Below, piece by piece: positions 12,625-27,328 of a DNA stretch of 35,334 nt. The first letter of the stretch is position 1. Every line of letters starts with the position of its first letter. The DNA comes from a virus: IMG/VR virus record IMGVR_UViG_3300010883_000165, positions 1 through 35,334 of that record. One strand, written 5' to 3'. The notes below the pieces were generated by a model. It was not told the origin of the DNA. It searched no databases and worked only from the letters and a program-made list of their open reading frames with translations. The position numbers and the translations under genes are program-made.

Positions 12625-12679
12625 TGTATTTATTGTATTTGTTATGGTTTTATTAGTATAACTGAATGTTATGGTTCCT

Positions 12680-12707
12680 AGCTTGCACGTATATCTGGAC
12701 TGGGCAA
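12680..12707 (-). promoter_or_regulatory. Promoter-like repeat element, copy 4
   Basis: Minus strand: TTGCCC (12707-12702), 16-bp spacer containing CCAGAT, then CAAGCTAG. It lies 56 bp upstream of the DUF932 start. CUUGC/GCAAG can pair across it. Same spacing as the other three copies. Confidence 0.55.
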
Positions 12708-12741
12708 GTATTATTATTGTTTATTTTTGATTTGATAAAAG

Positions 12742-12763
12742 GCAGTGTAGGATGCTGCACCCC
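12742..12763 (-). promoter_or_regulatory. Conserved intercistronic hairpin, copy with covarying stem
   Basis: On the minus strand GGGGT then GCAG-CATCCTACA-CTGC, a 4-bp stem with a 9-base loop, followed by TTTTAT. The loop is identical to the copies near 25649, 26128 and 26423, whose stem is GAAG/CTTC. Here both arms changed together. It begins 8 bp beyond the stop of the 12772-13272 gene. Confidence 0.6.
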
Positions 12764-12771
12764 ATAAGAGA

Positions 12772-13272
12772 TTAACTATATTGCGTCTCGAACACTGCTC
12801 TGGCTTCCTCTTCTGAGTTGGCTTGCATATCATTGTCGAACTGATAGAAGACTTTGTAGTCAATTGGCTCGCCAGTCATGTGGTCTTTTGCGTTTGCATA
12901 AACATGGGTGTAAGTGTAAACAGTCAGACCTCTGCGTAGACCTTGATTGTCTGAGTTGCTGGTAGAGGTCTTTGTGAATGTGCCGTCTGGATTCTTGCCA
13001 ATGGTCACTACATTTTCCCATGGCTCGAAATATTTCTCATTGGCATCTTCTAGTGTGTCAACTTTTAGATATCCACCGATACTTGTTTGTGAGTAATCAC
13101 TGCTGTGTGTGAACAGTTGTCTGATGTCATTGTCGTCGCAGTTGCTAAGGACGATGTATGTGTCACCACCTTTGTTCTTCCAGTATTCTGGGCATTCGCC
13201 TTCGCCATCCCAGTTGTGTGCTCCGTAGTTTTCGCGGTATTGAGTTGTTACGATTGTGTGCTTTGTATTCAT
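12772..13272 (-). CDS. Conserved phage protein (YRENYGAH type), unknown function
   Basis: 166 residues. The N-terminus TQYRENYGAHNWDGEGECP followed by WKNKGGDTYIV is a conserved signature I associate with phage proteins often encoded beside DUF932, as here. The rest is acidic with a C-terminal helix (SEEEARAVFETQYS). No catalytic residues assigned. It starts after an A-rich leader with two copies of AAAATCATAA and is followed by the covarying hairpin. Confidence 0.7.
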   Translation of the reverse strand: MNTKHTIVTTQYRENYGAHNWDGEGECPEYWKNKGGDTYIVLSNCDDNDIRQLFTHSSDYSQTSIGGYLKVDTLEDANEKYFEPWENVVTIGKNPDGTFTKTSTSNSDNQGLRRGLTVYTYTHVYANAKDHMTGEPIDYKVFYQFDNDMQANSEEEARAVFETQYS

Positions 13273-13306
13273 TGTATTTTTAGTTATGATTTTATGATTT
13301 TATAAA

Positions 13307-13519
13307 TTAGCTATTGTCTTTAAGAAGCTTGCGAGCTTTGCAAAGAGTCTCAATCTGTTCGTCGAGTAAGCAGTAAGCAGTTCGCAGTCTGTTGTCTTCA
13401 GAAGTTCCAACTACAGAAGGAGTGTTGATGATTTTGTTTTGCTCGATTGCTAGTTGCTTGATGACTTGCTTGATCTGGCGGTAGGTGGCTTGTTGCTCGT
13501 TGTAGGATTGAATGTTCAT
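13307..13519 (-). CDS. Small helical hypothetical protein (70 aa)
   Basis: Starts MNIQSYNEQQATYRQIKQVI and is probably all-helical, with heptad-like spacing (IKQVIKQLAIEQNKII) that suggests a short coiled coil. First gene behind promoter-like copy 2 (13551-13605), with the DUF932-neighbour gene 35 bp downstream. Could be a small dimeric regulator; no family recognised. Confidence 0.55.
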   Translation of the reverse strand: MNIQSYNEQQATYRQIKQVIKQLAIEQNKIINTPSVVGTSEDNRLRTAYCLLDEQIETLCKARKLLKDNS

Positions 13520-13550
13520 GATATTTAGTATTTTTATGGTTTTATTTAAT

Positions 13551-13605
13551 TTAGCTTAGAGTTAAGCTTGTCCTCTAGTTTGCACAGAGATCTGGACAAG
13601 TCAAG
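13551..13605 (-). promoter_or_regulatory. Promoter-like repeat element, copy 2
   Basis: Minus strand: TTGACT (13604-13599), 16-bp spacer with CCAGAT, CAAACTAG (from 13582). Flanking CUUGUCC and GGACAAG can form a 7-bp stem, and AGCUUA-ACUC-UAAGCU a second hairpin downstream. It fills most of the 135-bp gap between dnaE and the 13519 start. Confidence 0.6.
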
Positions 13606-13654
13606 TAAATATGCAAAAGTAATGAAAATACTTTTATGACCATCTATCCCAATG

Positions 13655-16495
13655 CTAAACACACTTGAAGCGATCATTGTCAGTCAGCTTCAAAATTTTA
13701 TTCACAAATAATTGAGTCCAACCTTCTTTTTTGCTGGCTTTTACAAGATACCAATCTCCTGTTTTTCCTGTCTCAACTATTGGCTTGGCAAGAGTCATAT
13801 ACTTGTGTCTGTCTATTGAGGCTAAACTATTTCCTGTGTCGTCTTGCAATGACATGCCGAAGAACAATGTCTGACCATGCATAACTTTTCCTCCTCTTCG
13901 CTCTAGCAATACTGGCTCATTGTGATCACGCAAATTCTTATCCATCAACTTTCCTATGACTACAAATTCTCCTGAGTTAGTAATTGTTATGTCTGCAATC
14001 TCTGTTATCTTAGATGTGATATTATATTTGTGTGGCTCTGCTTTTATGTGTCCCCAAAGTTCTTTGCATTCCCAGATTGAATCCCAAGGAGTTGTTCCAG
14101 AAGTAAGCAGAGTTGTTTGTCTTTTGCTCATTGGCTCTCCAGTGCTACGTTTATCCATTATGCTTCTCGCCATCTTTTCACCAACACCTTTTATTCCTAT
14201 AAGACCACCAACAAGATTTCCATCTTGGACAGACCAGTTGGATAAACTTTTGTCAGCATCATACGGCTTGTAATTATATCCTTCTTTGCTCAACTCTCTT
14301 AATATTCTTATGCTCTGGTCTTCATCTTTTGCATTACGCAAACATGCTGCAGCAAACTCAAGTGGGTAGTGTGCTTTTAAAACCATGCACCAATAAGAGA
14401 TCAGTCCATAAGCAACTGCATGCGATCGATTGAATGCCCAAGATCCCATTGTATTAATCTTGTCCCATATCATTCTTGATGTGTCTTTGTCCAGTCCATT
14501 TTCAATTGCACCCAATTCAAACTTTTCATAGAAGTTGTCGAAGAATTCTTTGCCTAAACTCTTGCTCATTGCTTTACGCAATTTGCTTACATCACCCCAG
14601 CTTAATTTTCCTACACTTCGTGCCACTTGCATGACTTGCTCTTGATAAACAATGATCCCATAAGTTTTGTCTGTGTATTCTTTTACAAGAGGGTGCATTG
14701 GATTTGCTGGAGCACCATTCTTGCGTTTAATGTATTCTGTTGTGCCTCCAGAGATCAGTGGTCCAGGTCTGCCCAAAGCTGTGATGGCAGTAATGTCCTC
14801 AAATGATTCCACTTCTATCTGCTGGCAGATGTTCTGAAGAGCAGTTCCTTCAAATTGGAAGATGCCTGCAAAATACTTCTTATTGATAATGCTGAATGCT
14901 TCCTTATCATCTAGCTTCCAATTCTTTATCTGATCCCTTGTCATTCCTACTTGGTCTAAGACATCTTGTAGAACGCTCAGAGTCCTCAGCCCCAAAACAT
15001 CAATCTTCAGCATTCCTATGGCTTCTGAATTGTGCTTGTCAATCATAGCACAACCACTCTTTTCATCAACCGCACAGTAAAGATTTGTTGGCTTGGCAGT
15101 GACAATGATTCCTGCAGCATGAACACCTGTGTGTCTTGCGTGGTGCTCAATATCCGCTACCACCTTGAGTTCTGGATACTTATTAAGAGTTTCTTTGCCC
15201 ACATCAAGTTGTTGAAAAGTATCAAGCAAGCAGAATGCAGCTCGAGAGTCACCACCAGACCTTTCAATGATGGCTTCTTTAAGGTCAGAAACCTCCCACA
15301 TAGGGATGCTCAAAGCTTTGCTCACATCTGTGATTGCTGACTTGGCTTTGAACACACTTATAGTTCCTAGCTTACTCACACAATCAGAGCCATACTTCTT
15401 GCAGAGATATTTGTAAACCATTTCTCTCTTGGTGTCTTCAAAGTCAATATCAATATCAGGATAGTCCATTCGGTTGATGTCAATGAAGCGTTCGAACAAC
15501 AGGTCATATGGAATTGGATCAACATCGGTGATGCCTATCAAGTAGCAAACCAAGCTACCACAAGAACTGCCACGAGCTGGACCAACAAACATCTTTGTCT
15601 TTGCATACTTGATCAGATCTGCAACGACATAAAAGTAGTCTTCAAACTTCTTTTCCTCAATCAAATCCAATTCTCGTTTAAGTCTTGCTGCATAGACTTC
15701 ATCCTCCAAGTTCACACCTAATTCAATTGCACCTTGTTGGCACATTTGTGCAAGGGTTTGCCATGTTTCTGGCTTAACCATCTCAGCCACTGGGAATTCA
15801 AATCTGCACTCTTCAAAAACAGCTCTGGTTCTGTCTGGTATGTCAGCTAACTCATCACCAAAGAATTCAATCCAGTCTTCTGTGTTCATGATTGTAGCAG
15901 GGCTAGTTATCATGTTGTAATTGTTCATGCCAATAGTGACTTGGTGTGCTGGCAGATCTTTAATAGTAGGATAGTAGTTGTTTGAACATGCCAACAGCTT
16001 TGGTCTGTATAGCTCTACCATTCTATTCTTGTGCCAAGTATTGTTCTGAGTATCTAAAGCCACATAGAAGTTGTCTCTCGCCATGAAATCATCCGCATAG
16101 CTTTCATCCCAATAAGCTCCAAGCACCACAATCAAATTACTGCTAACAGATGACAATATGGAATAGTCAATTCTAGGAACATAATAAAACTTTTCAGTAG
16201 ACAAAGTTGTCAGCTCATAAAGCTCTCTGAGTCCTTCTTGATTCTTGGCAAAAAATCGAGTGTATGAAATTGGTTGCTTTGCTCTGTCATCACAGTTGGC
16301 TACAGTTGGCAACTCAACTCCCAACAGAGGGATCTTGTCATGCTCCTTGCAGGCTTTGATAAAGTCAAGGTGTCCCCAAGTGCTTGCTCTGTCACAGATC
16401 CCCACAATGTCTTCTTGGTTGGTTTTTAAGACATCCTCTAGCTTGCCAGTTGCAAGTCTGAATGAGTATTGAGTTCTGTTTGCAAAGTTTATCAT
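13655..16495 (-). CDS. dnaE: DNA polymerase III alpha subunit (DnaE-type)
   Basis: 946 residues, shorter than the ~1,160 of bacterial DnaE. C-family landmarks in order: GPARGSSCGSLVCY (305-318), PDIDIDFED (346-354, catalytic Asp pair), then ALGRPGPL, IIVYQEQVMQ, LRKAMSKS, WAFNRSHAVAYGLISYWC, and a helix-hairpin-helix GIKGVGEKM, followed by an OB-like C-terminal region. The N-terminal PHP region lacks the usual HxH metal motif (NRTQYSFRL in its place), so PHP nuclease activity is probably lost. A separate DEDDh exonuclease is encoded upstream, overlapping by 4 bp, and could supply proofreading. The polymerase likely replicates the phage genome, presumably with the host sliding clamp. Confidence 0.95.
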   Translation of the reverse strand: MINFANRTQYSFRLATGKLEDVLKTNQEDIVGICDRASTWGHLDFIKACKEHDKIPLLGVELPTVANCDDRAKQPISYTRFFAKNQEGLRELYELTTLSTEKFYYVPRIDYSILSSVSSNLIVVLGAYWDESYADDFMARDNFYVALDTQNNTWHKNRMVELYRPKLLACSNNYYPTIKDLPAHQVTIGMNNYNMITSPATIMNTEDWIEFFGDELADIPDRTRAVFEECRFEFPVAEMVKPETWQTLAQMCQQGAIELGVNLEDEVYAARLKRELDLIEEKKFEDYFYVVADLIKYAKTKMFVGPARGSSCGSLVCYLIGITDVDPIPYDLLFERFIDINRMDYPDIDIDFEDTKREMVYKYLCKKYGSDCVSKLGTISVFKAKSAITDVSKALSIPMWEVSDLKEAIIERSGGDSRAAFCLLDTFQQLDVGKETLNKYPELKVVADIEHHARHTGVHAAGIIVTAKPTNLYCAVDEKSGCAMIDKHNSEAIGMLKIDVLGLRTLSVLQDVLDQVGMTRDQIKNWKLDDKEAFSIINKKYFAGIFQFEGTALQNICQQIEVESFEDITAITALGRPGPLISGGTTEYIKRKNGAPANPMHPLVKEYTDKTYGIIVYQEQVMQVARSVGKLSWGDVSKLRKAMSKSLGKEFFDNFYEKFELGAIENGLDKDTSRMIWDKINTMGSWAFNRSHAVAYGLISYWCMVLKAHYPLEFAAACLRNAKDEDQSIRILRELSKEGYNYKPYDADKSLSNWSVQDGNLVGGLIGIKGVGEKMARSIMDKRSTGEPMSKRQTTLLTSGTTPWDSIWECKELWGHIKAEPHKYNITSKITEIADITITNSGEFVVIGKLMDKNLRDHNEPVLLERRGGKVMHGQTLFFGMSLQDDTGNSLASIDRHKYMTLAKPIVETGKTGDWYLVKASKKEGWTQLFVNKILKLTDNDRFKCV

Positions 16496-17037
16496 TTTAT
16501 ATCTATGTAATTATTTTCTATCATCCACACAGCACACTTTGTCAGTGCTTCAACATCATTGATCGCTCTGTGTGCACCTTCAAATTTCATACCACCAGTT
16601 GCGATCTCGTATAATCGTCCTTGGTTGAGTCTAACTCCTCTTAGGTGAAAGCTTTGCTCAATGGTGCAGATCAAATTCTTAGGCATTGGAAAGTCTTCCA
16701 CTTGGTTACGCTTCATCTCAATTTCAATCATGCTCTTATCAAATGACAAGTTGTGTGCAATGAGATTGGTTTCACCTTCAAAGAATGACTTGAGTTCGCC
16801 AATGCGTTCTGAAAATTTCTTTTCATCCTCAATCATCTTGTCTGTGATCTTTGTTATTTTAATTATCTCTGGTGCCAAAGGTCTGCTTGGATTAACTAAA
16901 AAGTGCAACCTATCAAGCTCTGCAAGTGTTTCATCACAAAGCTTGATGGCTGCAAATTCTATTACCTTTGGCTGATGCTTGATGTCAGAGGCAATTGCCT
17001 TAACAAGTCCAGTTGTCTCTGTATCAAATATAATCAT
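16492..17037 (-). CDS. DEDDh 3'-5' exonuclease (epsilon-like proofreading)
   Basis: 181 residues with all four DEDDh motifs: FDTETTG (D5, E7), HNLSFDKSMI (D100), and GAHRAINDVEAL (H156, D161). The family is the DnaQ/epsilon group of proofreading exonucleases. Its stop overlaps the dnaE start (ATGA-type), which strongly suggests polymerase and exonuclease are made together as a split replicase. Its own start touches the upstream gene's stop. A role in host DNA degradation or RNA turnover is less likely given this pairing. Confidence 0.9.
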   Translation of the reverse strand: MIIFDTETTGLVKAIASDIKHQPKVIEFAAIKLCDETLAELDRLHFLVNPSRPLAPEIIKITKITDKMIEDEKKFSERIGELKSFFEGETNLIAHNLSFDKSMIEIEMKRNQVEDFPMPKNLICTIEQSFHLRGVRLNQGRLYEIATGGMKFEGAHRAINDVEALTKCAVWMIENNYIDIK

Positions 17038-17336
17038 CAGTCTTTTTTTCTGAATGAATCTGTATACTCAACCATTGCACAGTAAACTCCTGCATCATGA
17101 ATTGAATCTTGGTGACCACCTTCTGGGAAGTTAGATGCATACCTAGTGATTTTAACAATCAGCAATTCAAACAAGTGCCAAGAATTAAAGTCCTCTTTGG
17201 TTTGCAGCTTTATACCATCTGGAAAAAGAGTGTTCATGATTACTCCAACTTTCATATAGTTGTCTTTGTAAACTGAATTCCTTTCCACATAAGTCTCTGC
17301 AGACTCTTTGAGTATTTCTTCAACGCTCTTACGCAT
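17037..17336 (-). CDS. DUF6378 family protein
   Basis: 99 residues with the layout of the phage DUF6378 family: an N-terminal helix with ERNSVYKDNYMKVG, a middle segment ending LLIVKITRYASN, and a closing HQDSIHDAGVYCAMVE helix. The conserved charged residues recall small phage proteins related to all-alpha NTP pyrophosphatase-like folds, but a catalytic role has not been established to my knowledge. It overlaps the VOC-like gene by 8 bp and abuts the exonuclease gene, within the nucleotide/replication operon. Confidence 0.7.
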   Translation of the reverse strand: MRKSVEEILKESAETYVERNSVYKDNYMKVGVIMNTLFPDGIKLQTKEDFNSWHLFELLIVKITRYASNFPEGGHQDSIHDAGVYCAMVEYTDSFRKKD

Positions 17337-17829
17337 CTTTCTCCAATCGTTGGATTAGCTTCAAGTCCCAACCAAGGTCATCAAGAGTATCAAACACACA
17401 GTAGTGATATTTGCGTCCATTGTTCTTGAGGAACTCATTTGTGTGATCAGTTGTAAACAGTTCCTGTGCAACTTTGATCTTATAAGTATCATACAAGAAC
17501 TTTTTCTCGCTGTCTATTTCTTCAACATGGAATCCTTTGTGAGATAAGAATGTCTTACTCAGATCTCTTCCTCTGACTCCATGCCAGTTGTCTCCTTGTT
17601 GATAGTTTAACAGCTCGAACTCATAGCCCATTTCATAATTGAATGCTAGGTTTCCTATTGATCCTCCAACAATCTCTTTGCCGAAGCACTCTCCTGTTGC
17701 AGTAACTTGATCACGCACCCACTCTTTAGTTCCTAGGATTGTGTTGTGGTTCTCTATTGCCAGACCAATGTTAGGGCAGTAGATTGCCACTTGATCTATT
17801 TTTCCGTATCTTACTTCTATGCTATTCAT
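17329..17829 (-). CDS. VOC-superfamily (glyoxalase/dioxygenase-like) protein
   Basis: 166 residues with the paired beta-alpha-beta-beta-beta layout of vicinal oxygen chelate proteins: IDQVAIYCPNIGLAIENH, then FNYEMGYEFELLNYQ, a second module starting FLSHKGFHVEEID, and a closing strand DDLGWDLKLIQRL. Candidate metal ligands by pattern are Q13, E72, H97 or H101, and D155. VOC enzymes open, isomerise or oxidise small molecules using a divalent metal; the substrate here is unknown. It sits between an SDR dehydrogenase (gap 4 bp) and DUF6378 (8-bp overlap). An inactive binding protein is an alternative. Confidence 0.6.
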   Translation of the reverse strand: MNSIEVRYGKIDQVAIYCPNIGLAIENHNTILGTKEWVRDQVTATGECFGKEIVGGSIGNLAFNYEMGYEFELLNYQQGDNWHGVRGRDLSKTFLSHKGFHVEEIDSEKKFLYDTYKIKVAQELFTTDHTNEFLKNNGRKYHYCVFDTLDDLGWDLKLIQRLEKDA

Positions 17830-17833
17830 TTTA

Positions 17834-18523
17834 TTATGCTCCGTATGGGATTATTGTTCCAGTTAAGTATTTGTGTCTCTGTTTAGTTGATAGCAGGAAT
17901 GCTAAGAACTCTGCCAAGCTGTCAGGATCAGTTTCTTCACCTGCCAGAAGTGCATTGAGCTGATATTCTTTTGCTTGCTCTGGTGTCCAGCCACGCACAG
18001 AAGGAACTCTGCTGTCAATGTAATCAGACATTCCAGTTCCAGATAGCTTGTTGGGTGAAATGCCGAACACTGTAATGCCATGTGCCTTTGATAATTCTCT
18101 GGCGAGCTGGAGTGTCATTATGTGAGCTGCACCTTTACTTGCATTGTAGGCAAGTGAGTTAGTCATTGGCATGTGAGAAGCATTAGAGACAATGTTCACA
18201 ATGAATCCTTTTGTGTCTTTAAGCTTCTGCAAGAAGTGCTTGGACATATTAAATATAGACTTCGCATTTGTGTCCATAACTAAATCCCAATCTTCTTCAG
18301 TAAACTTGTCCAAGTAATCAATGCGATTAACACCTGCGCAGTTTATGATGCCATGGACTTCTACTTTTACATCTAAAGAGAATTCATGAACAGATGTATA
18401 GTCAGTCAGATCGACTTCCCACTTGTCTGCTTTAATTACATTTGTATTCTCGTCCTTCCTTAAGTGTTCGCAAATGCTTTCACCTAATCCAGAATTCGAT
18501 CCTGTTACTATTATATTATTCAT
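17834..18523 (-). CDS. Short-chain dehydrogenase/reductase (SDR)
   Basis: 229 residues, a complete classical SDR: cofactor motif TGSNSGLG (7-14), an acidic residue after the second strand, NCAG (61-64), the catalytic Ser region IVSNASH (S113), YNASK (Y126, K130), and the post-Lys segment GISPNKLSGTGM. It reduces or oxidises a small alcohol/carbonyl with NAD(P); the substrate cannot be read from sequence. Overlaps the HAD phosphatase gene by 8 bp and is 4 bp from the VOC gene. SDRs are rare in small siphophages, so recruitment as an auxiliary metabolic gene is likely. Confidence 0.9.
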   Translation of the reverse strand: MNNIIVTGSNSGLGESICEHLRKDENTNVIKADKWEVDLTDYTSVHEFSLDVKVEVHGIINCAGVNRIDYLDKFTEEDWDLVMDTNAKSIFNMSKHFLQKLKDTKGFIVNIVSNASHMPMTNSLAYNASKGAAHIMTLQLARELSKAHGITVFGISPNKLSGTGMSDYIDSRVPSVRGWTPEQAKEYQLNALLAGEETDPDSLAEFLAFLLSTKQRHKYLTGTIIPYGA

Positions 18524-18923
18524 TTATTTTTCCTTTGTTTACGTTGATTGCTATGTCGTCATATATCTTTACACACCTTGTGTCCTTGACATTTGTTACC
18601 TCTAGTTTGACTCCAAACTTGATCCAGCTCCATGCAGTGATGTAATCAATAGACATGATTGAATTTAACCCTGTCTCATCTGAACACCTTGCTGTGAATA
18701 TTTTGACTCGTTTGCCGTCTAGCAAATCTCTTGCCATGCGTTCACAAACTAATGACTGGTCATCTCCTATGTGGTCAGCACCTAGCCAACCATCATAAGC
18801 AACAAGAGTTCTGTCTAGGTCGTAACCAACCCAACTGGTGTCCTCGTTGCCCATGTAACCTGTGATGTCATAGAGATCATTTGTGTGCTTTGCTATATAT
18901 ATTCTTGTTGTTGGCTTGCTCAC
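18516..18923 (-). CDS. HAD-superfamily phosphatase (phage nucleotide/polynucleotide type)
   Basis: 135 residues. Motif I is GYDLDRTL (D35, D37, T39), motif II VKIFTAR (T77), motif III VKDTRC (K113), motif IV KIYDDIAI (D122, D123). The block 'DLDRTLVAYDGWLGADHIG' matches the compact HAD phosphatases common in phages, related to polynucleotide-kinase 3'-phosphatases and nucleotidases. Likely dephosphorylates a nucleotide or an end. It overlaps ThyX by 4 bp and SDR by 8 bp, consistent with a nucleotide-metabolism role. Confidence 0.85.
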   Translation of the reverse strand: MSKPTTRIYIAKHTNDLYDITGYMGNEDTSWVGYDLDRTLVAYDGWLGADHIGDDQSLVCERMARDLLDGKRVKIFTARCSDETGLNSIMSIDYITAWSWIKFGVKLEVTNVKDTRCVKIYDDIAINVNKGKINE

Positions 18924-19648
18924 TTTTCACCCTTCCTAATTTTATCAATCGCTTTCCATCCACAGTAACGCTCTTCAGTTGAAAGCTTTCTTTTTTCACC
19001 TGTCTCGATTAGTTGCTCTAAAAGCTTTAGCCGATCCTGTCCTTTGGGTTGAATAAAATCTTCAGCCCATGGGTGAATCTTTATTACCTCTTCAAACATC
19101 CCTTCAAATACATCTCTGTATTCGTTCTGAGTCCTCTTGCCAGTTCTAGATCTGCCCATCTCAGCAATCGTTCTTAAGTTGAACTGAGCAATAATGTTGG
19201 TGCATATATTTGTTGGCAGAACTCCTCTGGCATCTTCTACTGCACAGCCCATGTCAATAAGATCATCATAGGTCTTCTGTATGGTGTCCATGCACTTGTC
19301 GTATGCTTCCTTGCAATTGACATTGTCCTCAATAGTTGGACCAGTTACATATTCAAACTTCTCCATGTTGAGAAGACGCATTGTCTGCTGGGCATAACTG
19401 CCTGTCCTAGTCCTAACAAACTGGTGAGTGAATGCTCTGCTAACTCCAGAGATCTCGAATGTGTAATTCACAAACTCCCAACTGCTTGGAATTGTGTTAG
19501 CCATGTAAGAAAGCTCTTCTTGCTTTTCTTCAATGGACATCTTCTTGATCTTGTCTCTAGTCTCATCTCCTTGAGTGAGCCTAGTGCTCTTAGTATAGAT
19601 CAGCTTATCAACTGCTCCATATGTATAATCTATTAATTTTACTTTCAT
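18920..19648 (-). CDS. thyX: Flavin-dependent thymidylate synthase-like protein (ThyX), variant motif
   Basis: 242 residues. ThyX landmarks: ISGVSRAFTHQFVRTRTGSY (68-87) and EDARGVLPTNICTNI ... QFNLRTIAEM (138-164), then a TQNEYRDV segment that corresponds to the usual AQ-EIR. The signature RHR-x7-S reads R79-T80-R81-x7-T89, so the central His and final Ser are both replaced by Thr. A C-terminal ~40-residue tail (KLSTEERYCGWKAIDKIRKG) is extra. The family methylates dUMP using FAD, NADPH and methylene-folate; whether this variant does the same is open. Overlaps the FAD oxidoreductase and HAD genes by 4 bp each. Confidence 0.85.
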   Translation of the reverse strand: MKVKLIDYTYGAVDKLIYTKSTRLTQGDETRDKIKKMSIEEKQEELSYMANTIPSSWEFVNYTFEISGVSRAFTHQFVRTRTGSYAQQTMRLLNMEKFEYVTGPTIEDNVNCKEAYDKCMDTIQKTYDDLIDMGCAVEDARGVLPTNICTNIIAQFNLRTIAEMGRSRTGKRTQNEYRDVFEGMFEEVIKIHPWAEDFIQPKGQDRLKLLEQLIETGEKRKLSTEERYCGWKAIDKIRKGEK

Positions 19649-20598
19649 TTTATTTTGGTTTTATGGTTGTGGTTGTAATGGCTAGTGCCAGAAAGCTTTT
19701 CTATCTTACGAACGTCATCAACTACTGCATCCATAAGCAGTGGTCTCCACGTTGCGAATCTCCCTAATGAGTAAACATTGTATTGCTGAGTCAAGTAATA
19801 AATAAACTCCTGCCTCTCATGCTCATCAATGCTGAGTATTTTCCCAAGTGGCTGTGTGTGAACTGTCTCCTCTTCTATTTCAATGTCTGTTGAATTTAGA
19901 CTGCAAATTGTGCTGAGGAAATTGTAGACCACTTGCCTAGATTTTTCAGTAACATCTACATCACACTCTATAATCAAGTCATCTCCGTGAATGCTTCCTC
20001 TGTACCAATGTGTATACAAAGAAGAATTGTAAATTGTCTGGTGCACTCTGCTCTTTGGCTTCTTCAGCTTACACCTAATAACAAAGATCGGCTTGGCACA
20101 TTCTCTAAATTTTATATCTGTCTTCCAGCCAACGATCTTCATCATCACAGGCATGGGCAATGTGCTTATAGTAAGATCACCATCATGCTTGCATCCTTCA
20201 ATGTTAGCCTTGCCAATGGTGACTCCATACTCCACTTCAATGCTGTTAGCCATCTGCTCAACAAAGTTGTTAGGTGCTAAATACCTTACGCAAGGATCCA
20301 GATTCCAAACACTCCTGTCTTCAATTGCACCAGTAGCTTTTAAACTATAATTATTTGCATCTTGAACTGATGGTTTTTCCTTGTAGCCATTGTGTGTATA
20401 CAATGACTTGTTCACCTTAATTTTTTGGAATGGTATGCCAGTGGCTTCACTAACACTTTGATTGCGGAATCTCAATACAGCTTTGTGCAAGTCTGGAAGC
20501 TCGTCTTTGGCTTCAAAAACTGTTGGGCATCTTCTCCGCATCATGTTTGCAGCAAGCAGACCTGCCATGCCTGCTCCTAATATATTTGTCTTTTGCAT
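19645..20598 (-). CDS. FAD-dependent oxidoreductase
   Basis: 317 residues. The N-terminus NILGAGMAGLLAANMM is a GxGxxG dinucleotide-binding fold (G8, G10, G13) followed by an acidic residue (FEAKDELP). The middle has DLTISTLPMPVM, the usual 'return to FAD' strand, and near the end GRFATWRPLLMDAVVDD, a typical C-terminal FAD contact. The overall layout resembles UDP-galactopyranose mutase-like or small flavoprotein oxidases rather than a two-domain disulfide reductase. First gene of the overlapping block that runs through thyX to dnaE, overlapping thyX by 4 bp. Substrate unknown; a role with ThyX (flavin or base chemistry) is inference. Confidence 0.75.
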   Translation of the reverse strand: MQKTNILGAGMAGLLAANMMRRRCPTVFEAKDELPDLHKAVLRFRNQSVSEATGIPFQKIKVNKSLYTHNGYKEKPSVQDANNYSLKATGAIEDRSVWNLDPCVRYLAPNNFVEQMANSIEVEYGVTIGKANIEGCKHDGDLTISTLPMPVMMKIVGWKTDIKFRECAKPIFVIRCKLKKPKSRVHQTIYNSSLYTHWYRGSIHGDDLIIECDVDVTEKSRQVVYNFLSTICSLNSTDIEIEEETVHTQPLGKILSIDEHERQEFIYYLTQQYNVYSLGRFATWRPLLMDAVVDDVRKIEKLSGTSHYNHNHKTKIK

Positions 20599-20641
20599 TT
20601 TAATAATAGTGTGAATTGTTAATGATATTTATAAGAGATAA

Positions 20642-20679
20642 ATTGCCACACGCTAACAACCCCATTAACGTGTGGCAAT
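20642..20679 (-). terminator. 11-bp perfect inverted repeat, probable terminator or attenuator
   Basis: ATTGCCACACG pairs with CGTGTGGCAAT around a 16-base loop. It lies just after the SSB-like gene's stop and 44 bp before the FAD-oxidoreductase start, so it separates the primase/SSB block from the thyX-dnaE block. A T-rich stretch (TTTATCTCTTAT) follows on the minus strand. Partial read-through would be needed unless an unseen promoter follows. Confidence 0.6.
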
Positions 20680-20693
20680 GATCTGTTCAGCTT

Positions 20694-21482
20694 TTAGAAC
20701 GGAACTTCTTCTGTGCTTTCTGGTGCCTTAGTTTCTGGCATCCCTTCGTGTGCAGAAGTCTTTACATCGCCTGCAATGATCTGTTCACGGAATGCTTTTG
20801 CATCGTTATACAATTGCATTCCATTTTCAATCTCTGTGACGTTGTTGTCGCCAGCAATCTTCCAACCAAACCAAGAGCCTTGGTCATTTGATTCTGGTGA
20901 TGTAGTAAGCTTGTATGTCCGATAAAACATTGCAGGATTGAATGATCCTTCTCCTTCTGATCGTGCTACTCTCAACTGGTTGATCATAGTGTTCCACTTT
21001 TTGGACTTCTTGATTTGACTGCCATGCATTGATAATGCGTATGGACTGTAAGAGCCATCTTCATTCAACACGTAGATGTAATACTCTGCACAAGGCATAA
21101 TCACGTTGCCATCATTGTTGATGTATTGACCACGATCATCACGCTTGCAATTGTTAAGAGGATAATCACCTTTGTGGACATTGACCAATCCTCCACCTTG
21201 TTTGCGAGGCTCCCACTCAAGATATGACTTTGAATATGTGATAGGTAATACTGTCACACCTTCTCCACCATCAATAAGCTTCTCTTCAGCATTGTCAATA
21301 ATCATTCCTGCCTTAGCACCATCAACAGATTGCACCTGTTCACTTAATGCTTGCAGAATCTTAAGACGAGGAATGATGTAATCATCCTTGCCCATTTCTT
21401 CTTGTCCTGCTCCACCATCTTCTTCAAATGATGTAACTGATAGTTCATTCTTACTTGCTTTTGTTATTTGTTTCTTAGCCAT
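20694..21482 (-). CDS. Putative ssDNA-binding protein
   Basis: 262 residues, of a phage type recognised by KDDYIIPRLKILQALSEQV near the N-terminus, a Gly/Trp segment (SYLEWEPRKQGGG), and an acidic C-terminus ending STEEVPF. That end mimics the SSB acidic tip (DDDIPF), which recruits replication proteins. The central region would be the OB-like or binding core but I cannot place an OB fold with certainty. Located beside primase-helicase and recombination-type genes. A RecT-like annealing function is an alternative. Confidence 0.6.
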   Translation of the reverse strand: MAKKQITKASKNELSVTSFEEDGGAGQEEMGKDDYIIPRLKILQALSEQVQSVDGAKAGMIIDNAEEKLIDGGEGVTVLPITYSKSYLEWEPRKQGGGLVNVHKGDYPLNNCKRDDRGQYINNDGNVIMPCAEYYIYVLNEDGSYSPYALSMHGSQIKKSKKWNTMINQLRVARSEGEGSFNPAMFYRTYKLTTSPESNDQGSWFGWKIAGDNNVTEIENGMQLYNDAKAFREQIIAGDVKTSAHEGMPETKAPESTEEVPF

Positions 21483-21518
21483 ATATTATGCTTTCCTTTA
21501 TTGTTATTAGTTTAGAGC

Positions 21519-22124
21519 TTAGAGCTTTTTTCTGCCCATTTTTAACTCTGCGATACTGCCTGTGTAAACATTAAATGCATCCAAGTCCACATCTGTGCCT
21601 TGTGACATTTGTTCTTTCACCCAAGCGGTAAGTTGTCCTGTGTGAACTGTATCATTCACCTCTACATTCAGTCCTAAGCTTTGCAGCTCACGGATAGCAC
21701 TGTCTTTGCGTTCAATGTCACCTTTTTCAAATTGGACATCTAGCTTAGACTTGATCAGTGATCCTCCTCCACCAAGAGTTAGGGATGCTAATGCCATCTC
21801 TCTTTTCTCGATTAGTTGCTCTCTGCGATACTGATCCTTTTCTCTTGCGATAGATGTAGCTGTTGGAATTGATGCTTTAACAAAGCTCTTAACAGAAACT
21901 TTTATACCATCACTTGTTTCAAAGCTTTCAAGTCCTAACTCTGCCATAGCTTCTGGAAGGTGAAGTGTGTCTACTTCTTCTGCATACTTCATCAACTCTT
22001 TCAAGACAATCTTCTTGTCTTCAATCTCATTGGAAAGTTGTCTGCGATTCTTTAAAAGACTTTGCAATGTAGTTGTGTCTTCTGAGGGTAATGCTTTGTC
22101 ATGTTCTATATTTTCGTTATTCAT
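21519..22124 (-). CDS. Conserved phage protein near primase/SSB, unknown function
   Basis: 201 residues. The pattern LPEAMAELGLESFETSDG, then VHTGQLTAWVKEQMSQG and a closing LDAFNVYTGSIAELK, matches a widely conserved phage family in which VH-x-x-x-L-x-x-x-V/F-R/K-E-Q is the signature. It usually sits next to SSB or primase genes; biochemical role unknown to me. The N-terminal half is a long helix (coiled-coil-like). Overlaps the next upstream gene by 4 bp. Confidence 0.65.
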   Translation of the reverse strand: MNNENIEHDKALPSEDTTTLQSLLKNRRQLSNEIEDKKIVLKELMKYAEEVDTLHLPEAMAELGLESFETSDGIKVSVKSFVKASIPTATSIAREKDQYRREQLIEKREMALASLTLGGGGSLIKSKLDVQFEKGDIERKDSAIRELQSLGLNVEVNDTVHTGQLTAWVKEQMSQGTDVDLDAFNVYTGSIAELKMGRKKL

Positions 22125-22468
22125 AATTTTATTTTTATTGGGTAGTAATAACCACCATTAGCACTGCTTGGTCTTTTTGACCAGAACAGATAGTTTATCT
22201 CTTTGAATCCCATGTCGACTAGCACCATAGGCACCAACCATTGAACGGATGGATCTGCGAATCCAACCCACAACAGGAAGTCTTCCTTGGGATCAAAATC
22301 TTTCAAACGCAGTCTAGCTTTTTCAACTGCTGCATCTGTGTCTATATAAACTCTGTCACCTTTATCAAAGATTGCTTTTATTGCTCCATGGTCTGCAGCA
22401 CTGCTCAGATCTGGCGTCCAACCATCGCTCTTAGGCAACGGCTCTTGCATTAAATATACTTTACTCAT
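22121..22468 (-). CDS. Conserved small phage protein, unknown function
   Basis: 115 residues with a recognisable pattern: TPDLSSAADHGAIKAIFDKG, then RLKDFDPKEDFLLWVGFADP and a YYYPIKIKL ending. Similar proteins occur in replication modules of marine and other siphophages beside the previous family; no catalytic motif known. It overlaps the 21519 gene by ATGA and follows the 22470 gene with a 1-bp gap. Confidence 0.6.
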   Translation of the reverse strand: MSKVYLMQEPLPKSDGWTPDLSSAADHGAIKAIFDKGDRVYIDTDAAVEKARLRLKDFDPKEDFLLWVGFADPSVQWLVPMVLVDMGFKEINYLFWSKRPSSANGGYYYPIKIKL

Positions 22469-22469
22469 T

Positions 22470-22694
22470 TTATTGTTTTTTGTTGTTTTGGTTTATGTCT
22501 TTGCAGGTCTTGATTGATTCTGAATAGCCTCTCTTTACCCAGAAGTGTCTCCAGCCTTTTTCTATTTCTTCTATTAAAAATTTGTCACAGGGAAATACAT
22601 ATTTTGTGTGCTTGATAATCCAATACTTTTTCCTCTCATGGTGCTCAGCAATTTTACTGCCACGCAATGTCTGTTTGTGGTTAGTATGGCTCAT
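22470..22694 (-). CDS. Small basic protein (74 aa), unknown
   Basis: Start chosen at the second Met (MSHTNHKQTLRG), whose ATG overlaps the end of the primase-helicase frame; two residues upstream another Met (22700) is possible. Highly basic, with aromatic residues (KYWIIKHTKYVFPCDK). It may bind nucleic acid, but no known domain is seen. Reality rests on precise packing between the primase-helicase stop and the next start. Confidence 0.5.
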   Translation of the reverse strand: MSHTNHKQTLRGSKIAEHHERKKYWIIKHTKYVFPCDKFLIEEIEKGWRHFWVKRGYSESIKTCKDINQNNKKQ

Positions 22695-24807
22695 TCTCAA
22701 ATAGTTGATTTGTTTGCTCTACATCTTCATTTCCTAATCCGTCCTCATATGCAGTTGCGATTCTTTTCTTATCATCCTCATAGCTTTTCATCCAAGATTC
22801 TATGTTGCGTAATGCCCACAGTCTTTTGACACAGCCTGTTGATAGTGATATCTGTGCTGGGAACTGTATTGCTCCTAGGTCTTTAAGCTTCCTGCCTAGC
22901 CAATGATTTGTGACAGTCTTATTAAACCTTTTCTTAATGACTTCAGACAGATCGGTAACACTTATGATGTCGCACTTGAATGGCCAATCACCATGTTCAA
23001 ATCTGTCCTCGATGAATTCATCAATGGGCAATTTTGTAGCTGAGATAGCTATCTTTTTTCCTTGGGTCATTGGAGCATGACTTTGTGGATTAAACTTTTT
23101 CAAATCTCTATTAAGAAACCAATGCAAGATAGCAGAATAATTATTGCGAGTCCAATCCCAGAGCTTTTTATAATACATTGATGACTTTGGCTTAACATCT
23201 GAATAGATCATGCAATATCTTCGGTCATCTTTGTCCAATATAATGCTGTCGTCATAATTTGTGAATGCTATTAAGTTTGCCACATTCCTCATCTTATAAG
23301 TTGGCTTGTGCATCTCCCTAATTTGAACAATGCTTTGCGTGATTATAGGCTTCAGCTTATTCATCAATTCTAATCTGCCTCTTGCCATAAGCTCTTCAAT
23401 AATAATTAGGTGTGAAGACTTTAACCAACCAGTATAGATCTCGTGTATCTCATCATTGCTTGGCATTGATACGTTAGTCTCACCCAGCATGTTCATCAAG
23501 ATGTCTCCAATGTATGATTTGCCTGTGCCTTGGTGACCACGGATGATTAGCATCCATAGAATTTTGTGTCCTTTATTCTGCACATTGTATGCCAGATAAT
23601 CATAAACGATATTGCACTCAATTTCATTGGTGAACATGTATTCAAAATGATCTGTCAATGGTGTGACATCTCCTGCCAATGGCTTGATCTTGCTTGGTCT
23701 GTAAAGATTATAAGTCTCGTGCTCAGTTTGCTTATCTACATAAACAATTGGTTCTCTTGGGTCATAAGTTATTGATGGAAACTTTTTGAATTGTGGATTG
23801 CTGATTGCATCCTTAGCTGCAGTTCCACGCTCAACCAAGTGTGCATATTCATCGCTGTATTGCTCCTTGTCATATTCAAGCATGGACTCAACGTGATGGA
23901 ATCGCTTTGTGCTAATTGTATACACCCATCCTGTTGGTTGATTGGGCATTAACATCTCGTTACAAAAGGTCTCAGCTTCGGTGTCTGTAAGCTGTGTTAT
24001 TATGTCCTCATTGCCATCTGTTATTACATCATCAATGCCTTTGCCTGCAGCCATTGGCCAATGCTCAATAACTGGCACTGCTAATTGGTTGTCTCGAATG
24101 GCACAATACAGTTTTGCTAATGCTACCCCAACCTTGGACAGATCTTCTTCTGTTGGGTCACTAGCACCATCCTTGTTGATGTATGGGTTGGCTTTGTCCT
24201 TGTCTGCATCGAAGCACAGCAGAACTTTCTTTGGCTTCAATTCTTTGATTGCATCGATTGCCATACGCCAGCTTGAAACGCCAGAAATGCTAACTGTGTA
24301 TACTCCTGTGTATTGGGTAGCAATCTCTGCCTTAAATTCACCTTCGGTTATGCGTAAGGTGTCCGCTATGGCATTTTCAGCACCCCATGTGGGAAAGTGG
24401 TTGCAGATTGTTGCAGCTGTCCCATTAGGGTAATTTATATTCCCATCTTTGTTAGCCTTGGGATTGCTACTCAGCATTAGATACTTTGACTGTGGAGTGG
24501 TTGGTCGATCACTTCTAATTTTAAGACCTGCCAAGGTCTTGTCTAAATTACGAATCGGTATAATTATTCCTGCACAACCTGCCAGTGCCCACTTGTCATT
24601 GTTGCGATAGAATCCAGCAGTCATAGCGAGCTCAGAGACAGAGACTTTCTCCAGCAACTGCTCGACAATCACCTTGCGTCTAAAAGGCATCGTCTTGAAG
24701 CCAATCTGTTCTATTCCTTCTGCAGTAAATCCTCTGTGCATTAAGCTCGTCCTATGCTGGTCAGATAGCTCCAGCAATGATAACAATTCTTGGTAAACTT
24801 TATGCAT
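22681..24807 (-). CDS. TOPRIM primase fused to SF3-type helicase (DUF3854 / DUF5906 layout)
   Basis: 708 residues. The N-terminal half has a TOPRIM pattern: RITEGEFKAEIATQ (E155), KKVLLCFDADKDK (D200, D202), and AAGKGIDDVI (255-262), matching DUF3854 primases. The C-terminal half has Walker A RGHQGTGKS (423-431), Walker B LIIIEE (467-472), the asparagine sensor AFTNYDD and an arginine-finger-like DKDDRRYCM, as in DUF5906/D5-type helicases. No zinc finger is evident at the N-terminus. It probably primes and unwinds at the origin; such fusions can serve as the sole replicative helicase of small phages. Overlaps the lytic transglycosylase gene by 8 bp. Confidence 0.9.
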   Translation of the reverse strand: MHKVYQELLSLLELSDQHRTSLMHRGFTAEGIEQIGFKTMPFRRKVIVEQLLEKVSVSELAMTAGFYRNNDKWALAGCAGIIIPIRNLDKTLAGLKIRSDRPTTPQSKYLMLSSNPKANKDGNINYPNGTAATICNHFPTWGAENAIADTLRITEGEFKAEIATQYTGVYTVSISGVSSWRMAIDAIKELKPKKVLLCFDADKDKANPYINKDGASDPTEEDLSKVGVALAKLYCAIRDNQLAVPVIEHWPMAAGKGIDDVITDGNEDIITQLTDTEAETFCNEMLMPNQPTGWVYTISTKRFHHVESMLEYDKEQYSDEYAHLVERGTAAKDAISNPQFKKFPSITYDPREPIVYVDKQTEHETYNLYRPSKIKPLAGDVTPLTDHFEYMFTNEIECNIVYDYLAYNVQNKGHKILWMLIIRGHQGTGKSYIGDILMNMLGETNVSMPSNDEIHEIYTGWLKSSHLIIIEELMARGRLELMNKLKPIITQSIVQIREMHKPTYKMRNVANLIAFTNYDDSIILDKDDRRYCMIYSDVKPKSSMYYKKLWDWTRNNYSAILHWFLNRDLKKFNPQSHAPMTQGKKIAISATKLPIDEFIEDRFEHGDWPFKCDIISVTDLSEVIKKRFNKTVTNHWLGRKLKDLGAIQFPAQISLSTGCVKRLWALRNIESWMKSYEDDKKRIATAYEDGLGNEDVEQTNQLFENEPY

Positions 24808-25186
24808 CGTCAGACAGTGAGTTGATTAGGATTTCTTTGCGAACTTTTACCCAGTAAGATTCGGTTGCTGTCTTCTTGTAACCAATTGGTCCACCATTCC
24901 AGATCCGTGCATAAATTTCAGCATTAGGCTTATTGCCTGTTTCCTTTTCATATTGTCCACCCCAGAATTTCAAATACTTTTTGGCAATGTCGAATGACTT
25001 CTTTGTGACCAGTCTGTCTTGCGATCTGTAACTGGTTTTATAGATCCTATTTACGTCATCAATAACGCACATGTGAATTTGCATACAGCCCAATGCTGAA
25101 CCATTGTCTCCAATTGCATTTTCGTTTCCGTGAGACTCGACCATCATGATCGAAAAAAGAAGGGTGTAGAATTTTACAGTTATCAT
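24800..25186 (-). CDS. Lytic transglycosylase-like endolysin (SLT fold)
   Basis: 128 residues covering little more than the catalytic core: IMMVESHGNENAIGDNGSAL (E17, with the ES-x-GN and A-x-G-x-x-G-x-A-x-G pattern of SLT/goose-lysozyme-like transglycosylases), followed by GCMQIHMC, DIAKKYLKFWGG and IYARIWNGGPIGY. No signal peptide; a hydrophobic start (FYTLLFSIMM) is the first helix of the fold. It should cleave peptidoglycan for release or, less likely, entry. Unusually it lies in the early/replication arm, overlapping the primase-helicase gene by 8 bp, far from the membrane genes at 86-648. Confidence 0.8.
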   Translation of the reverse strand: MITVKFYTLLFSIMMVESHGNENAIGDNGSALGCMQIHMCVIDDVNRIYKTSYRSQDRLVTKKSFDIAKKYLKFWGGQYEKETGNKPNAEIYARIWNGGPIGYKKTATESYWVKVRKEILINSLSDDA

Positions 25187-25207
25187 AGTTATATAGTTTT
25201 TGGTTTA

Positions 25208-25411
25208 TTATAAGGTGCTATCAATCCATCCCATTGGAGCTTTTCCAATGTCAAGTCCAAGCTCATCAATCCTCTGCTCAAGATCGTATTTCATTTTGTG
25301 CAGATGCTGTCTCCTTTCAAGACCACGAGCCACACACAGAGTCATGTAACAGTTCGCCCACACTTGTAAAAGAGTGTAAGGACGATTGTATTTTGCTAAG
25401 TGCTGGTTCAT
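25208..25411 (-). CDS. Small hypothetical protein (67 aa)
   Basis: Starts MNQHLAKYNRPYTLLQVWAN after an A/C-rich leader containing TCATAAAATC. The central helix CVARGLERRQHLHKMKYDLE is strongly charged and may form a coiled coil. No family recognised. It lies 21 bp before the transglycosylase gene. Confidence 0.5.
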   Translation of the reverse strand: MNQHLAKYNRPYTLLQVWANCYMTLCVARGLERRQHLHKMKYDLEQRIDELGLDIGKAPMGWIDSTL

Positions 25412-25510
25412 GATTTTATGAAGTTATGATGGTTGTCGCTTGCAGCGTGATTTGTGATATATTAATAGGCAATATCTTTTTTTGCAATATGTGAAAATAA
25501 GATTATCGGA

Positions 25511-25639
25511 TCAAAGATGTTCAATGATTATTGATACAATGAGCAGAACAGTTGCGATTAGAATGCAAGCGAATACAGCGAATGCACTCTCAGCTTGTTT
25601 CTGCGTTTTGACTAGTTTGGTTTTGTTTTTTGGATTCAT
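25511..25639 (-). CDS. 42-residue single-span membrane protein
   Basis: ATG at 25637-25639 preceded by an A/T-rich leader and by the conserved hairpin at 25649-25670; TGA at 25513-25511. Basic N-terminus (MNPKNKTKLVKTQKQ) then a hydrophobic span (FAVFACILIATVLLIVSIII) and a short end. Positive-inside N-terminus plus one helix fits a small regulator or a holin/antiholin partner of the adjacent transglycosylase. A forward-strand frame overlaps it but has no leader. Confidence 0.5.
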   Translation of the reverse strand: MNPKNKTKLVKTQKQAESAFAVFACILIATVLLIVSIIIEHL

Positions 25640-25648
25640 AATAAAATT

Positions 25649-25670
25649 GAAGTGTAGGATGCTTCTCCCC
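25649..25670 (-). promoter_or_regulatory. Conserved intercistronic hairpin
   Basis: Minus strand: GGGGA then GAAG-CATCCTACA-CTTC, stem 4 bp, loop 9 bases identical to three other copies. It lies 7 bp after the 25678 gene's stop and 9 bp before the ATG of the membrane peptide, so it could gate that start. Confidence 0.6.
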
Positions 25671-25677
25671 AAATTGG

Positions 25678-26088
25678 TTATCTGATTTCGTGGTAGAGAA
25701 CACCTGTTGATGGAGACTTTGCTTTTGTCCAGCCAACAGGATCACAGCGGAAACTATTGAGAGAGAAACCATTCTCGTCACTGCGTATTTCTACGAAGTC
25801 ACCAACAGACATTGAGAAGAAATTGATGTCTTTGTTCTCGCAGTTTGCAAGTTCTTTTGTATACAGCTCACGAAGATATTTTTGCGTATAATTAAGTAAC
25901 TCCTCTGGTGCATTTGTGGCAGCAAATAATTCTTCGCACATTTGCTCTGGAGTTAGATCAAGCATGTCTTTTAAGAAAAGACTGCAGAACACTGTATTGA
26001 TTTCGAAGTGCATCAACTCTGCATATGGAGATTCTTCTGGCTCGACTCTGCGGTTGGTTGGGCGATTGATTGTGATTGTAATGCTCAT
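25678..26088 (-). CDS. Hypothetical protein with SVGD-type C-terminal domain (136 aa)
   Basis: Start chosen at MSITITIN (ATG 26086-26088) after the A-rich leader; a longer frame would read through the conserved hairpin. The N-terminal half is acidic. The C-terminal segment NFFSMSVGDFVEIRSDENGF followed by CDPVGWTKA resembles the 'SxSVGDvv' ending found in several phage and plasmid accessory proteins (YodL/antirestriction neighbourhood), function unknown. Preceded by hairpin 26128-26149. Confidence 0.55.
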   Translation of the reverse strand: MSITITINRPTNRRVEPEESPYAELMHFEINTVFCSLFLKDMLDLTPEQMCEELFAATNAPEELLNYTQKYLRELYTKELANCENKDINFFSMSVGDFVEIRSDENGFSLNSFRCDPVGWTKAKSPSTGVLYHEIR

Positions 26089-26127
26089 GATATTTTTTTG
26101 GTTTTGGTTTTTTGGTTTTATAAAAGT

Positions 26128-26149
26128 GAAGTGTAGGATGCTTCGCCCC
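26128..26149 (-). promoter_or_regulatory. Conserved intercistronic hairpin
   Basis: Minus strand: GGGGC then GAAG-CATCCTACA-CTTC, identical to the copy at 26423-26444. It starts 8 bp after the stop of the 26158 gene and ends 39 bp before the 26088 start; a TTTTAT follows the stem. Confidence 0.6.
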
Positions 26150-26157
26150 ATTTAGAT

Positions 26158-26385
26158 TTATGAGATTAACTTTTGAGGAACTGAGCGAAGAGCTACATCT
26201 GCTTTGGCTGAGAAGAATGTGTCTACTTGGATATTGTTGTCTGTGCGAAACTGATTGTCGGTGACATAGTCCATTGCCTCTTCACGCAAGAGATTTGTAA
26301 GCTCTCCTGATCGTGTATTGATTAAGTCGAACCACATTCCATAGCCTTTGTAGTCGATGATGAATTTGATAGTATTTTTGCTCAT
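26158..26385 (-). CDS. Small hypothetical protein (75 aa)
   Basis: Begins MSKNTIKFIIDYKGYGMWFD after an A/C-rich leader (AAAACCATAAAATC). Mixed alpha/beta with a C-terminal segment DTFFSAKADVALRSVP. No recognised family. Second gene from the origin on the leftward arm, so probably expressed very early. Confidence 0.55.
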   Translation of the reverse strand: MSKNTIKFIIDYKGYGMWFDLINTRSGELTNLLREEAMDYVTDNQFRTDNNIQVDTFFSAKADVALRSVPQKLIS

Positions 26386-26422
26386 GATATTTTTGATTTT
26401 GATTTTATGGTTTTATGAAATT

Positions 26423-26444
26423 GAAGTGTAGGATGCTTCGCCCC
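26423..26444 (-). promoter_or_regulatory. Conserved intercistronic hairpin
   Basis: Minus strand: GGGGC then GAAG-CATCCTACA-CTTC, between the 26455 gene's stop (10 bp away) and the 26385 start (~38 bp). Loop identical in all copies. Confidence 0.6.
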
Positions 26445-26454
26445 ATGGTTAGAA

Positions 26455-26823
26455 TTATTTTACGTAAGGGTGATTTGCGAAAGGAACGAGCTGGATGCCG
26501 TCTGAGTAAGCTTCGTGGTTAGGAAGAATCTTAACTGTGTATTTTCTTCCTTCAACAAGAACGTGCTGACCTTCGGTAAGCTCGATTGCATTTTCGTATG
26601 CTTGGCGTTCGTTAGCCATGTCTTGTGCTTTGCCTTCGTAGTCGGCACAGATTGTAGCACCAGAAGCATTGATCCAAGCTAGTGGGTGGCGAAGTGAGAT
26701 AGAACGTTGAACTTGTTCTTCGTCGCAACGAGCTTCTACTGAGCCAACTTTGAATACTGTTTCGTATTTGTCTTGGTTAGTTTTAACTTGGTTGCCAGAG
26801 TGGAGGAGGATTGTTGTGTTCAT
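26455..26823 (-). CDS. First leftward early gene, hypothetical (122 aa)
   Basis: Starts MNTTILLHSGNQVKTNQDKY after a leader with two ACCATAA units and the promoter-like copy 3. The C-terminal third (GQHVLVEGRKYTVKILPNHE) resembles a small beta-barrel (SH3/KOW-like) but no family can be named. Being the first gene beside the putative origin, it may encode an early host-takeover or regulatory protein; this is position only. Confidence 0.55.
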   Translation of the reverse strand: MNTTILLHSGNQVKTNQDKYETVFKVGSVEARCDEEQVQRSISLRHPLAWINASGATICADYEGKAQDMANERQAYENAIELTEGQHVLVEGRKYTVKILPNHEAYSDGIQLVPFANHPYVK

Positions 26824-26854: not shown

Positions 26855-26908
26855 TAAGCTAAGAGTTAAGCTTACACACTAGCCTGTTCACATATCTGGT
26901 TAAGTCAA
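26855..26908 (-). promoter_or_regulatory. Promoter-like repeat element, copy 3
   Basis: Minus strand: TTGACT (26908-26903), 16-bp spacer containing CCAGAT, CAGGCTAG (from 26886), then TAAGCTTAACTCTTAGCTTA as in copies 1 and 2. Located 58 bp upstream of the first leftward gene and therefore the likely main early promoter. Confidence 0.6.
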
Positions 26909-27215: not shown

Positions 27216-27219
27216 GTTG

Positions 27220-27263
27220 TTGACAGGTCAATGTTATGCTGTCAAACTTCTGCAAACTATAAT
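27220..27263 (+). promoter_or_regulatory. Candidate rightward promoter/operator
   Basis: TTGACA at 27220-27225 and an inverted TGTCAA at 27240-27245 form a palindrome with a 14-bp spacer. TATAAT occurs at 27258-27263, within TGCAAACTATAAT, which shares TGCAAACTA with the leftward elements. TTGACA is followed after 17 bp by CAAACT. Which hexamers are used is uncertain, but this is the only good signal upstream of the HNH gene at 27329. Confidence 0.5.
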
Positions 27264-27328
27264 GCTTGGGGTGTCTTCTCTGCAGGCAGTAATGTATAAA
27301 AACCATACCCGTTTATTCTACGAACACA

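Follow-up and report, generated by a model that had tools for sequence, protein, structure and literature searches.

A predicted compact RNA pseudoknot behind the first gene of transcription units in many unrelated uncultivated phages

The sequence CATCCTACA occurs four times in a stretch of 35,334 bases from an IMG/VR virus record (the window), and these copies together with their relatives define an element that is almost certainly a genuine cis-acting RNA of transcription units, whatever its reader. The predicted structure is a compact H-type RNA pseudoknot of 22-24 nt, in which a 3-bp helix between G1G2G3 and the loop bases UCC is enclosed by a 4-bp stem. The element probably controls the making or use of operon mRNA. 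It was previously uncatalogued: as a structure it constitutes a new family, and as a kind it belongs to the cis-acting RNAs of phages.

All four copies are located on the minus strand of the window (0.29 expected; four reached in none of 100 shuffles). A preliminary description had reported hairpins at these sites, three with GAAG/CTTC and one with GCAG/CTGC stems. Both sites and stems were confirmed, and each full element including the GGGG comprises 22 nt. All copies had been said to lie within about 10 bp of the preceding stop, and the distances from stop to first G are indeed 8, 7, 8 and 10 nt in order of coordinate. The intercistronic placing stood in so far as all four copies follow a stop, but the copy at 12742 is not near the next start codon (117 nt). 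Selection for pairing had been deduced from the one stem that differs; a single changed pair among four copies is weak evidence, and it was the relatives described below that substantiated the covariation. No fifth copy was found in the window, where the next best match to a 30-nt consensus scored 17/28 as compared with 22-28 for the four, and a covariance model run on the window likewise recovered these four copies only. Copies 1-3 lie in the gaps between the first four small genes of a minus-strand operon, and copy 4 sits between a gene for a 166-aa protein and a DUF932 gene. Copies 2-4 share a 3' flank, ANTTT[TC]AT, beyond the element proper. Four copies in one genome are exceptional, as most records have one and one or two are the rule.

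Coordinates of the pseudoknot copies and neighbouring features in the window
Feature	Position	Strand	Description
Possible operon promoter	26880..26908	-	TTGACT-N17-AGGCTA; read from the sequence only, not confirmed by a consensus scan
Possible mRNA 5'-end hairpin	26855..26874	-	TAAGCTTAACTCTTAGCTTA; likewise read from the sequence
First gene of minus-strand operon	26455..26823	-	122 aa, no known function
Pseudoknot copy 1	26423..26444	-	GGGGC GAAG CATCCTACA CTTC; 10 nt past stop of operon gene 1
Second gene, between copies 1 and 2	26158..26385	-	75 aa
Pseudoknot copy 2	26128..26149	-	GGGGC GAAG CATCCTACA CTTC; 8 nt past stop of second gene
Third gene, between copies 2 and 3	25678..26088	-	About 136 aa from ATG at 26088; frame in ORF list longer, to 26151
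Pseudoknot copy 3	25649..25670	-	GGGGA GAAG CATCCTACA CTTC; 7 nt past stop of third gene; next ATG 9 nt on
Gene before copy 4	12772..13272	-	166 aa, without Pfam match
Pseudoknot copy 4	12742..12763	-	GGGGT GCAG CATCCTACA CTGC; 8 nt past a stop; DUF932 gene 117 nt on
DUF932 gene downstream of copy 4	11851..12624	-	PF06067, E 1.6e-9

Elsewhere the window encodes a terminase, a portal protein, a ClpP-like protease, a tape-measure-like minor tail protein and a polymerase of the PolIII-alpha type. The 117-nt untranslated stretch between copy 4 and the DUF932 gene (12625-12741, minus strand) contains an inverted repeat, CTTGC...GCAAG, which is conserved in locus L122. Upstream of the early operon (26970-27330, minus strand), a divergent intergenic region carries the AT repeat ATATATATATATAATATATAAAG and several TTCGCTT-like words; these are possible origin or regulator sites.

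The consensus of the element reads 5'-A N GGG(G) N GNNG CA UCC (UACA or NANCAA) CNNC A-3'. When 115 sites that differ in their flanks were scanned blindly for mutual information (numbering from 0 at the first G), the pairs 6-20, 0-13, 7-19 and 5-21 ranked highest, all of them Watson-Crick. They correspond to the three variable stem pairs and to the pseudoknot pair, 0-13, which joins the first G (G1) to the fifth loop base (loop C5). Among 138 sites in the fetched loci that match every unpaired consensus position, all four stem pairs are formed in 135, and the stem types, at least seven, include GCAG, GAGG, GAAG, GGAG, AGAG, CGCG, GACG and GTAG. Pairing holds for 99.0% of cells across 44 distinct sequences, and the covariation score is 0.480 versus 0.124 in shuffles. 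Pairing of the GGGG with UCC in the loop, proposed in the preliminary description, was supported by compensatory changes at the pseudoknot pair: scans of IMG/VR found both sides changed in 47 stretches, whereas a change on one side was found in 2 stretches (of one lineage) and in none, respectively, for the two sides. Distinct full-stem sites with a double change comprised 34 A/T, one C/G and one T/T in a fetched set that was partly picked by double change, a choice that did not favour Watson-Crick combinations. Replacement of G-C by A-U at this pair was counted at 25 sites, and C-G and U-A also occur. We infer pairing of 1-12, which is nearly invariant, and of 2-11, an invariant G-U. A covariance check on relatives had been proposed for the hairpin, and it revealed compensated pairs in the stem and in the pseudoknot. 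In the second copy of L025 (locus position 2284) both pseudoknot cytosines are replaced by G (CATGGTACA) and C occupies positions -1 and 0; pairing would be restored in a register shifted by one.

Conservation extends from -2 to +22 in type I elements and to +24 in type II elements, and the adjoining 10 nt or so on either side avoid G. The hairpin alone is weak, with folding energies of -3.9 and -3.6 kcal/mol that are no better than those of shuffles. Because the stems covary, the wobble pairs are of the sense-strand type and the orientation is always that of transcription, we strongly infer that the functional form is sense-strand RNA.

A scan of IMG/VR in which the stem was left free returned at least 120 stretches, and nearly all sites had a fully complementary 4-bp stem. 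The same scan of 84,980 bacterial and archaeal species gave 22 matches, about the chance level; stems were complementary in two of these, one of which (L148) is on a phage-like contig. Of 395 Bacteroidota genomes scanned, two matches were obtained, both with non-pairing stems. Since cellular matches are at about chance level and nearly all have unpaired stems, the signal is confined to virus contigs, and the idea of a host regulon was rejected on the basis of these two scans. A covariance model run on the carrier genomes uncovered longer relatives, the type II subclass with a 6-nt third loop, NANCAA. It is present in at least 120 stretches and is as abundant as type I; third loops of 5 or 7-14 nt were absent from the fetched loci. 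The only two type II full-stem sites with a double change have T-A and A-T as pseudoknot pair. Rfam 15 contained no family that reached the gathering threshold in the window or in six carrier loci, and with the threshold relaxed to E values up to 10 nothing overlapped an element on its strand. Searches of cultured phages and plasmids gave no real match, and a literature search found no paper recording GCATCCTACACTGC. The carriers are diverse: the window and 30 whole or nearly whole records were sorted into 21 groups that have little in common and range in GC content from 0.27 to 0.55.

Since most carriers lack Shine-Dalgarno signals and have TAnnTTTG promoters, their hosts are presumably Bacteroidota, which likewise lack Shine-Dalgarno sites (PMC6847099) and whose -7 box is TAnnTTTG (PMC9723704, PMC6847099). 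The window and some marine groups have TTGAC-type sequences and make partial use of Shine-Dalgarno sites, which renders the hosts uncertain there, and the reader of the element may be conserved beyond one phylum. No tRNA genes were found that could serve as a host clue, and assignment from the closest cultured phages was abandoned because these relatives are too distant.

Type I sites are mostly located 6-12 nt past a same-strand stop, never less than 6, with a peak at 7-8 nt; the corresponding distance for type II sites peaks at 7 nt. The preceding stop is UAA in 158 of 169 sites (about 94%), compared with 832 of 1415 background genes. Spacing to the downstream ATG is looser (7-47 nt). At uncensored sites with a called upstream gene, this gene is the first of its unit in 58% (type I) and 62% (type II) of cases versus 23% of other junctions, while placing in a leader before the first gene is seen at about 2 of 115 sites. 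TAnnTTTG precedes the upstream gene at 42% (type I) and 64% (type II) of sites as opposed to 8% of other genes, and in whole records 16 of 17 units driven by TAnnTTTG have the element exactly after gene 1. The median distance from promoter to element is 262 nt, and the promoters are often of the Bacteroidota type TTTG/TAnnTTTG. In genomes G006, G009, G017 and G035, two units each carry one element. Altogether, 17 units with and 76 units without the element were counted in the same genomes. Element-bearing units are no longer in bases than others but are divided into more, smaller genes. Their first genes are short, at a median of about 80 aa versus 147 aa in other units (p = 0.0015 in the comparison with other multi-gene units). 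Strong sense terminators are rare inside element-bearing units, with one close case in G001. Taken together, the unit-bound placing on the sense strand and the covariation argue for a sense-strand cis-acting RNA of transcription units.

Leaders of several carriers contain another hairpin, just before the first ATG (L013, L018, L029, L031, L086 and L103, at about -250 to -190 from the element; also L067 and L112). It reads ACCG...CGGT in one of these sets, ATCGTT...AACGAT in the other, and seems to covary; it is probably a separate 5'-end RNA structure. The marine group L034, L036, L094 and L110 has TTGAC promoters ahead of the first gene, together with a leader hairpin resembling ATCGAAGCGATTAACGCTTCGA close to the likely transcription start.

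The genes flanking the element are mostly short, unrelated, hypervariable and without known function. No gene family was found to be preferred next to it, and no protein family common to all carriers was detected at the BLAST or profile level, at which small divergent proteins could escape. Homology was one-sided in 0.74 of comparisons at element junctions versus 0.40-0.44 at other junctions. Members of the L013 group differ by exchange of just the first gene, from ATG to stop, with promoter, element and second gene kept; in other groups the second gene is swapped while the element stays. The element thus belongs to the transcription unit and not to a gene. Single-gene hypervariable slots, in which only the coding sequence is exchanged, are occupied by the first gene in the L013 group and by second genes in L156/L183, L168/L172/L180 and L005/L109, and are candidates for anti-defence genes.

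With respect to function, we tentatively favour an action on the elongating host polymerase similar to that of put or nut RNAs. The pseudoknot would fold in the ribosome-free gap as RNA polymerase leaves the first gene and would act on the elongating enzyme, directly or via a conserved host factor, such that pausing or termination in the downstream operon would be suppressed, as by HK022 put RNA and lambda nutR. As the element is found near the start of the unit whatever the genes, a factor that reads the nascent or mature RNA is needed. A host-encoded reader, for instance core RNA polymerase, would agree with the finding that carriers have no phage protein in common; a common reader encoded by the phages was discarded as none was found across carriers. 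A put- or nut-like action might account for the promoter-proximal place, the single copy per unit, the strict sequence, the separate copies in separate units and the lack of a common phage protein. Against it are the near absence of leader positions, whereas putL and nutL sit in leaders, the scarcity of downstream terminators, which leaves little visible to read through, the size of 22-24 nt, far below that of put (about 70 nt), and the unit length in bases, which is not increased. Antitermination through visible terminators was rejected because these are mostly absent within units. A more far-reaching proposal, which we consider unlikely, is that a 22-24 nt pseudoknot with two loop subclasses acts alone on the RNA polymerase of Bacteroidota, and perhaps of others; it would be the smallest known intrinsic antitermination element, used once per early unit in many unrelated uncultivated phages.

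The preliminary description had listed an operator for a phage RNA-binding protein, an RNase processing site and an attenuator as roles; the list was narrowed only, the operator being weakened by the lack of a protein family common to carriers. Processing or stability of mRNA is a possible, if doubtful, function. The pseudoknot would cap the message of the first gene at its 3' end or, once cleavage has occurred, the downstream message at its 5' end, and the short first gene might then be expressed differently from the rest, as with the RNase III sites behind T7 gene 0.3. The tight spacing to the stop and looser spacing to the ATG, the short hypervariable first genes and the G-poor, single-stranded flanks agree with such a boundary, whereas the loops are stricter than a generic nuclease barrier requires and the 76 units that do without the element outnumber those that have it. 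It is rather unlikely that the pseudoknot controls translation of the second gene by obstructing or attracting ribosomes that initiate or reinitiate, in which case it might serve an RNA-binding protein of phage or host as operator: the start-codon spacing is loose, the second gene is replaceable while the element stays, and neither a preferred gene family nor a common phage protein was found, even though about one fifth to one third of type I sites end 7-11 nt before the AUG, within the ribosome footprint, and most carriers resemble Bacteroidota in lacking Shine-Dalgarno sites (PMC6847099). An attenuator that halts some polymerases, transiently or for good, once the first gene has been transcribed would suit the location and the A/T-rich region after the stem with almost no G, but is improbable given the lack of a consistent U-tract and the weakness of the hairpin alone.

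That the element acts in trans, as a decoy released from early mRNA to titrate a host defence or regulatory protein, is very improbable; it is gene-agnostic, strongly conserved and preceded by promoters of the type that the host's main sigma factor uses, yet it is locked to one operon position and spans phages with different promoter types. The increased exchange of neighbouring genes might suggest a function at the DNA level, with a single-strand hairpin serving as attC-like cassette exchange site, origin or hairpin promoter. This is hardly credible, as exchange ends at the ATG and stop of the gene with no second copy at the far boundary, the element is always co-directional with transcription, and neither upstream promoter conservation nor a shared recombinase or virion polymerase was found. 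The following candidates were rejected: (i) a promoter, as no -10/-35 is conserved upstream; (ii) an N4-type hairpin promoter, as no giant virion polymerase is among the shared families; (iii) a readthrough or frameshift pseudoknot, as the frames are distributed 38/32/28, the downstream frame does not continue the upstream one and the stop is UAA in 102 of 110 cases; (iv) a gene-specific riboswitch or operator, as the neighbours are unrelated; (v) an integron-like attC or cassette recombination site, as exchange boundaries lie at ATG and stop and not at the element; (vi) an intrinsic terminator, in view of the 4-bp stem and the lack of a consistent U-tract.

Several known phage RNAs resemble the element in part. 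Lambda nutR lies just behind cro, the first gene of an early operon, and is thus placed like the element; lambda nut consists of boxA and boxB and depends on phage N and host Nus factors, whereas the element shows no boxA-like conservation and its carriers share no N-like protein. The early RNase III sites of T7 (R0.3 and others) are structured intercistronic RNAs behind a variable first early gene, but they are larger duplexes that RNase III recognises and lack invariant loops. A compact H-type pseudoknot is present in the gene 32 mRNA of T4 and T2, where it serves a single gene from the leader as target of an autogenous repressor, while the element is gene-agnostic and intercistronic. HK022 put RNA (putL/putR) is likewise a cis-acting structured phage RNA in a promoter-proximal position, one per early unit, although early timing is putative for the element. 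PutR is situated some 270 nt from its start site and put needs no dedicated phage protein (PMC9378689); the median of 262 nt between promoter and element is similar. HK022 put, which binds the polymerase of E. coli, forms two stem-loops in about 70 nt, whereas the element is a 22-24 nt pseudoknot without sequence relation to it, for which action on polymerase is putative. Two long stem-loops, as in put of the HK022 type, do not fit within its conserved region from -2 to +22/+24.

The element represents a new RNA family that Rfam lacks and whose covariation, seen across unrelated phages of widely varied GC content, is unusually clean. Its sequence offers a way into early gene control in phages of Bacteroidota, a field of which we found little description, and it flags a hypervariable slot at the first gene in which a search for anti-defence genes may be worthwhile.
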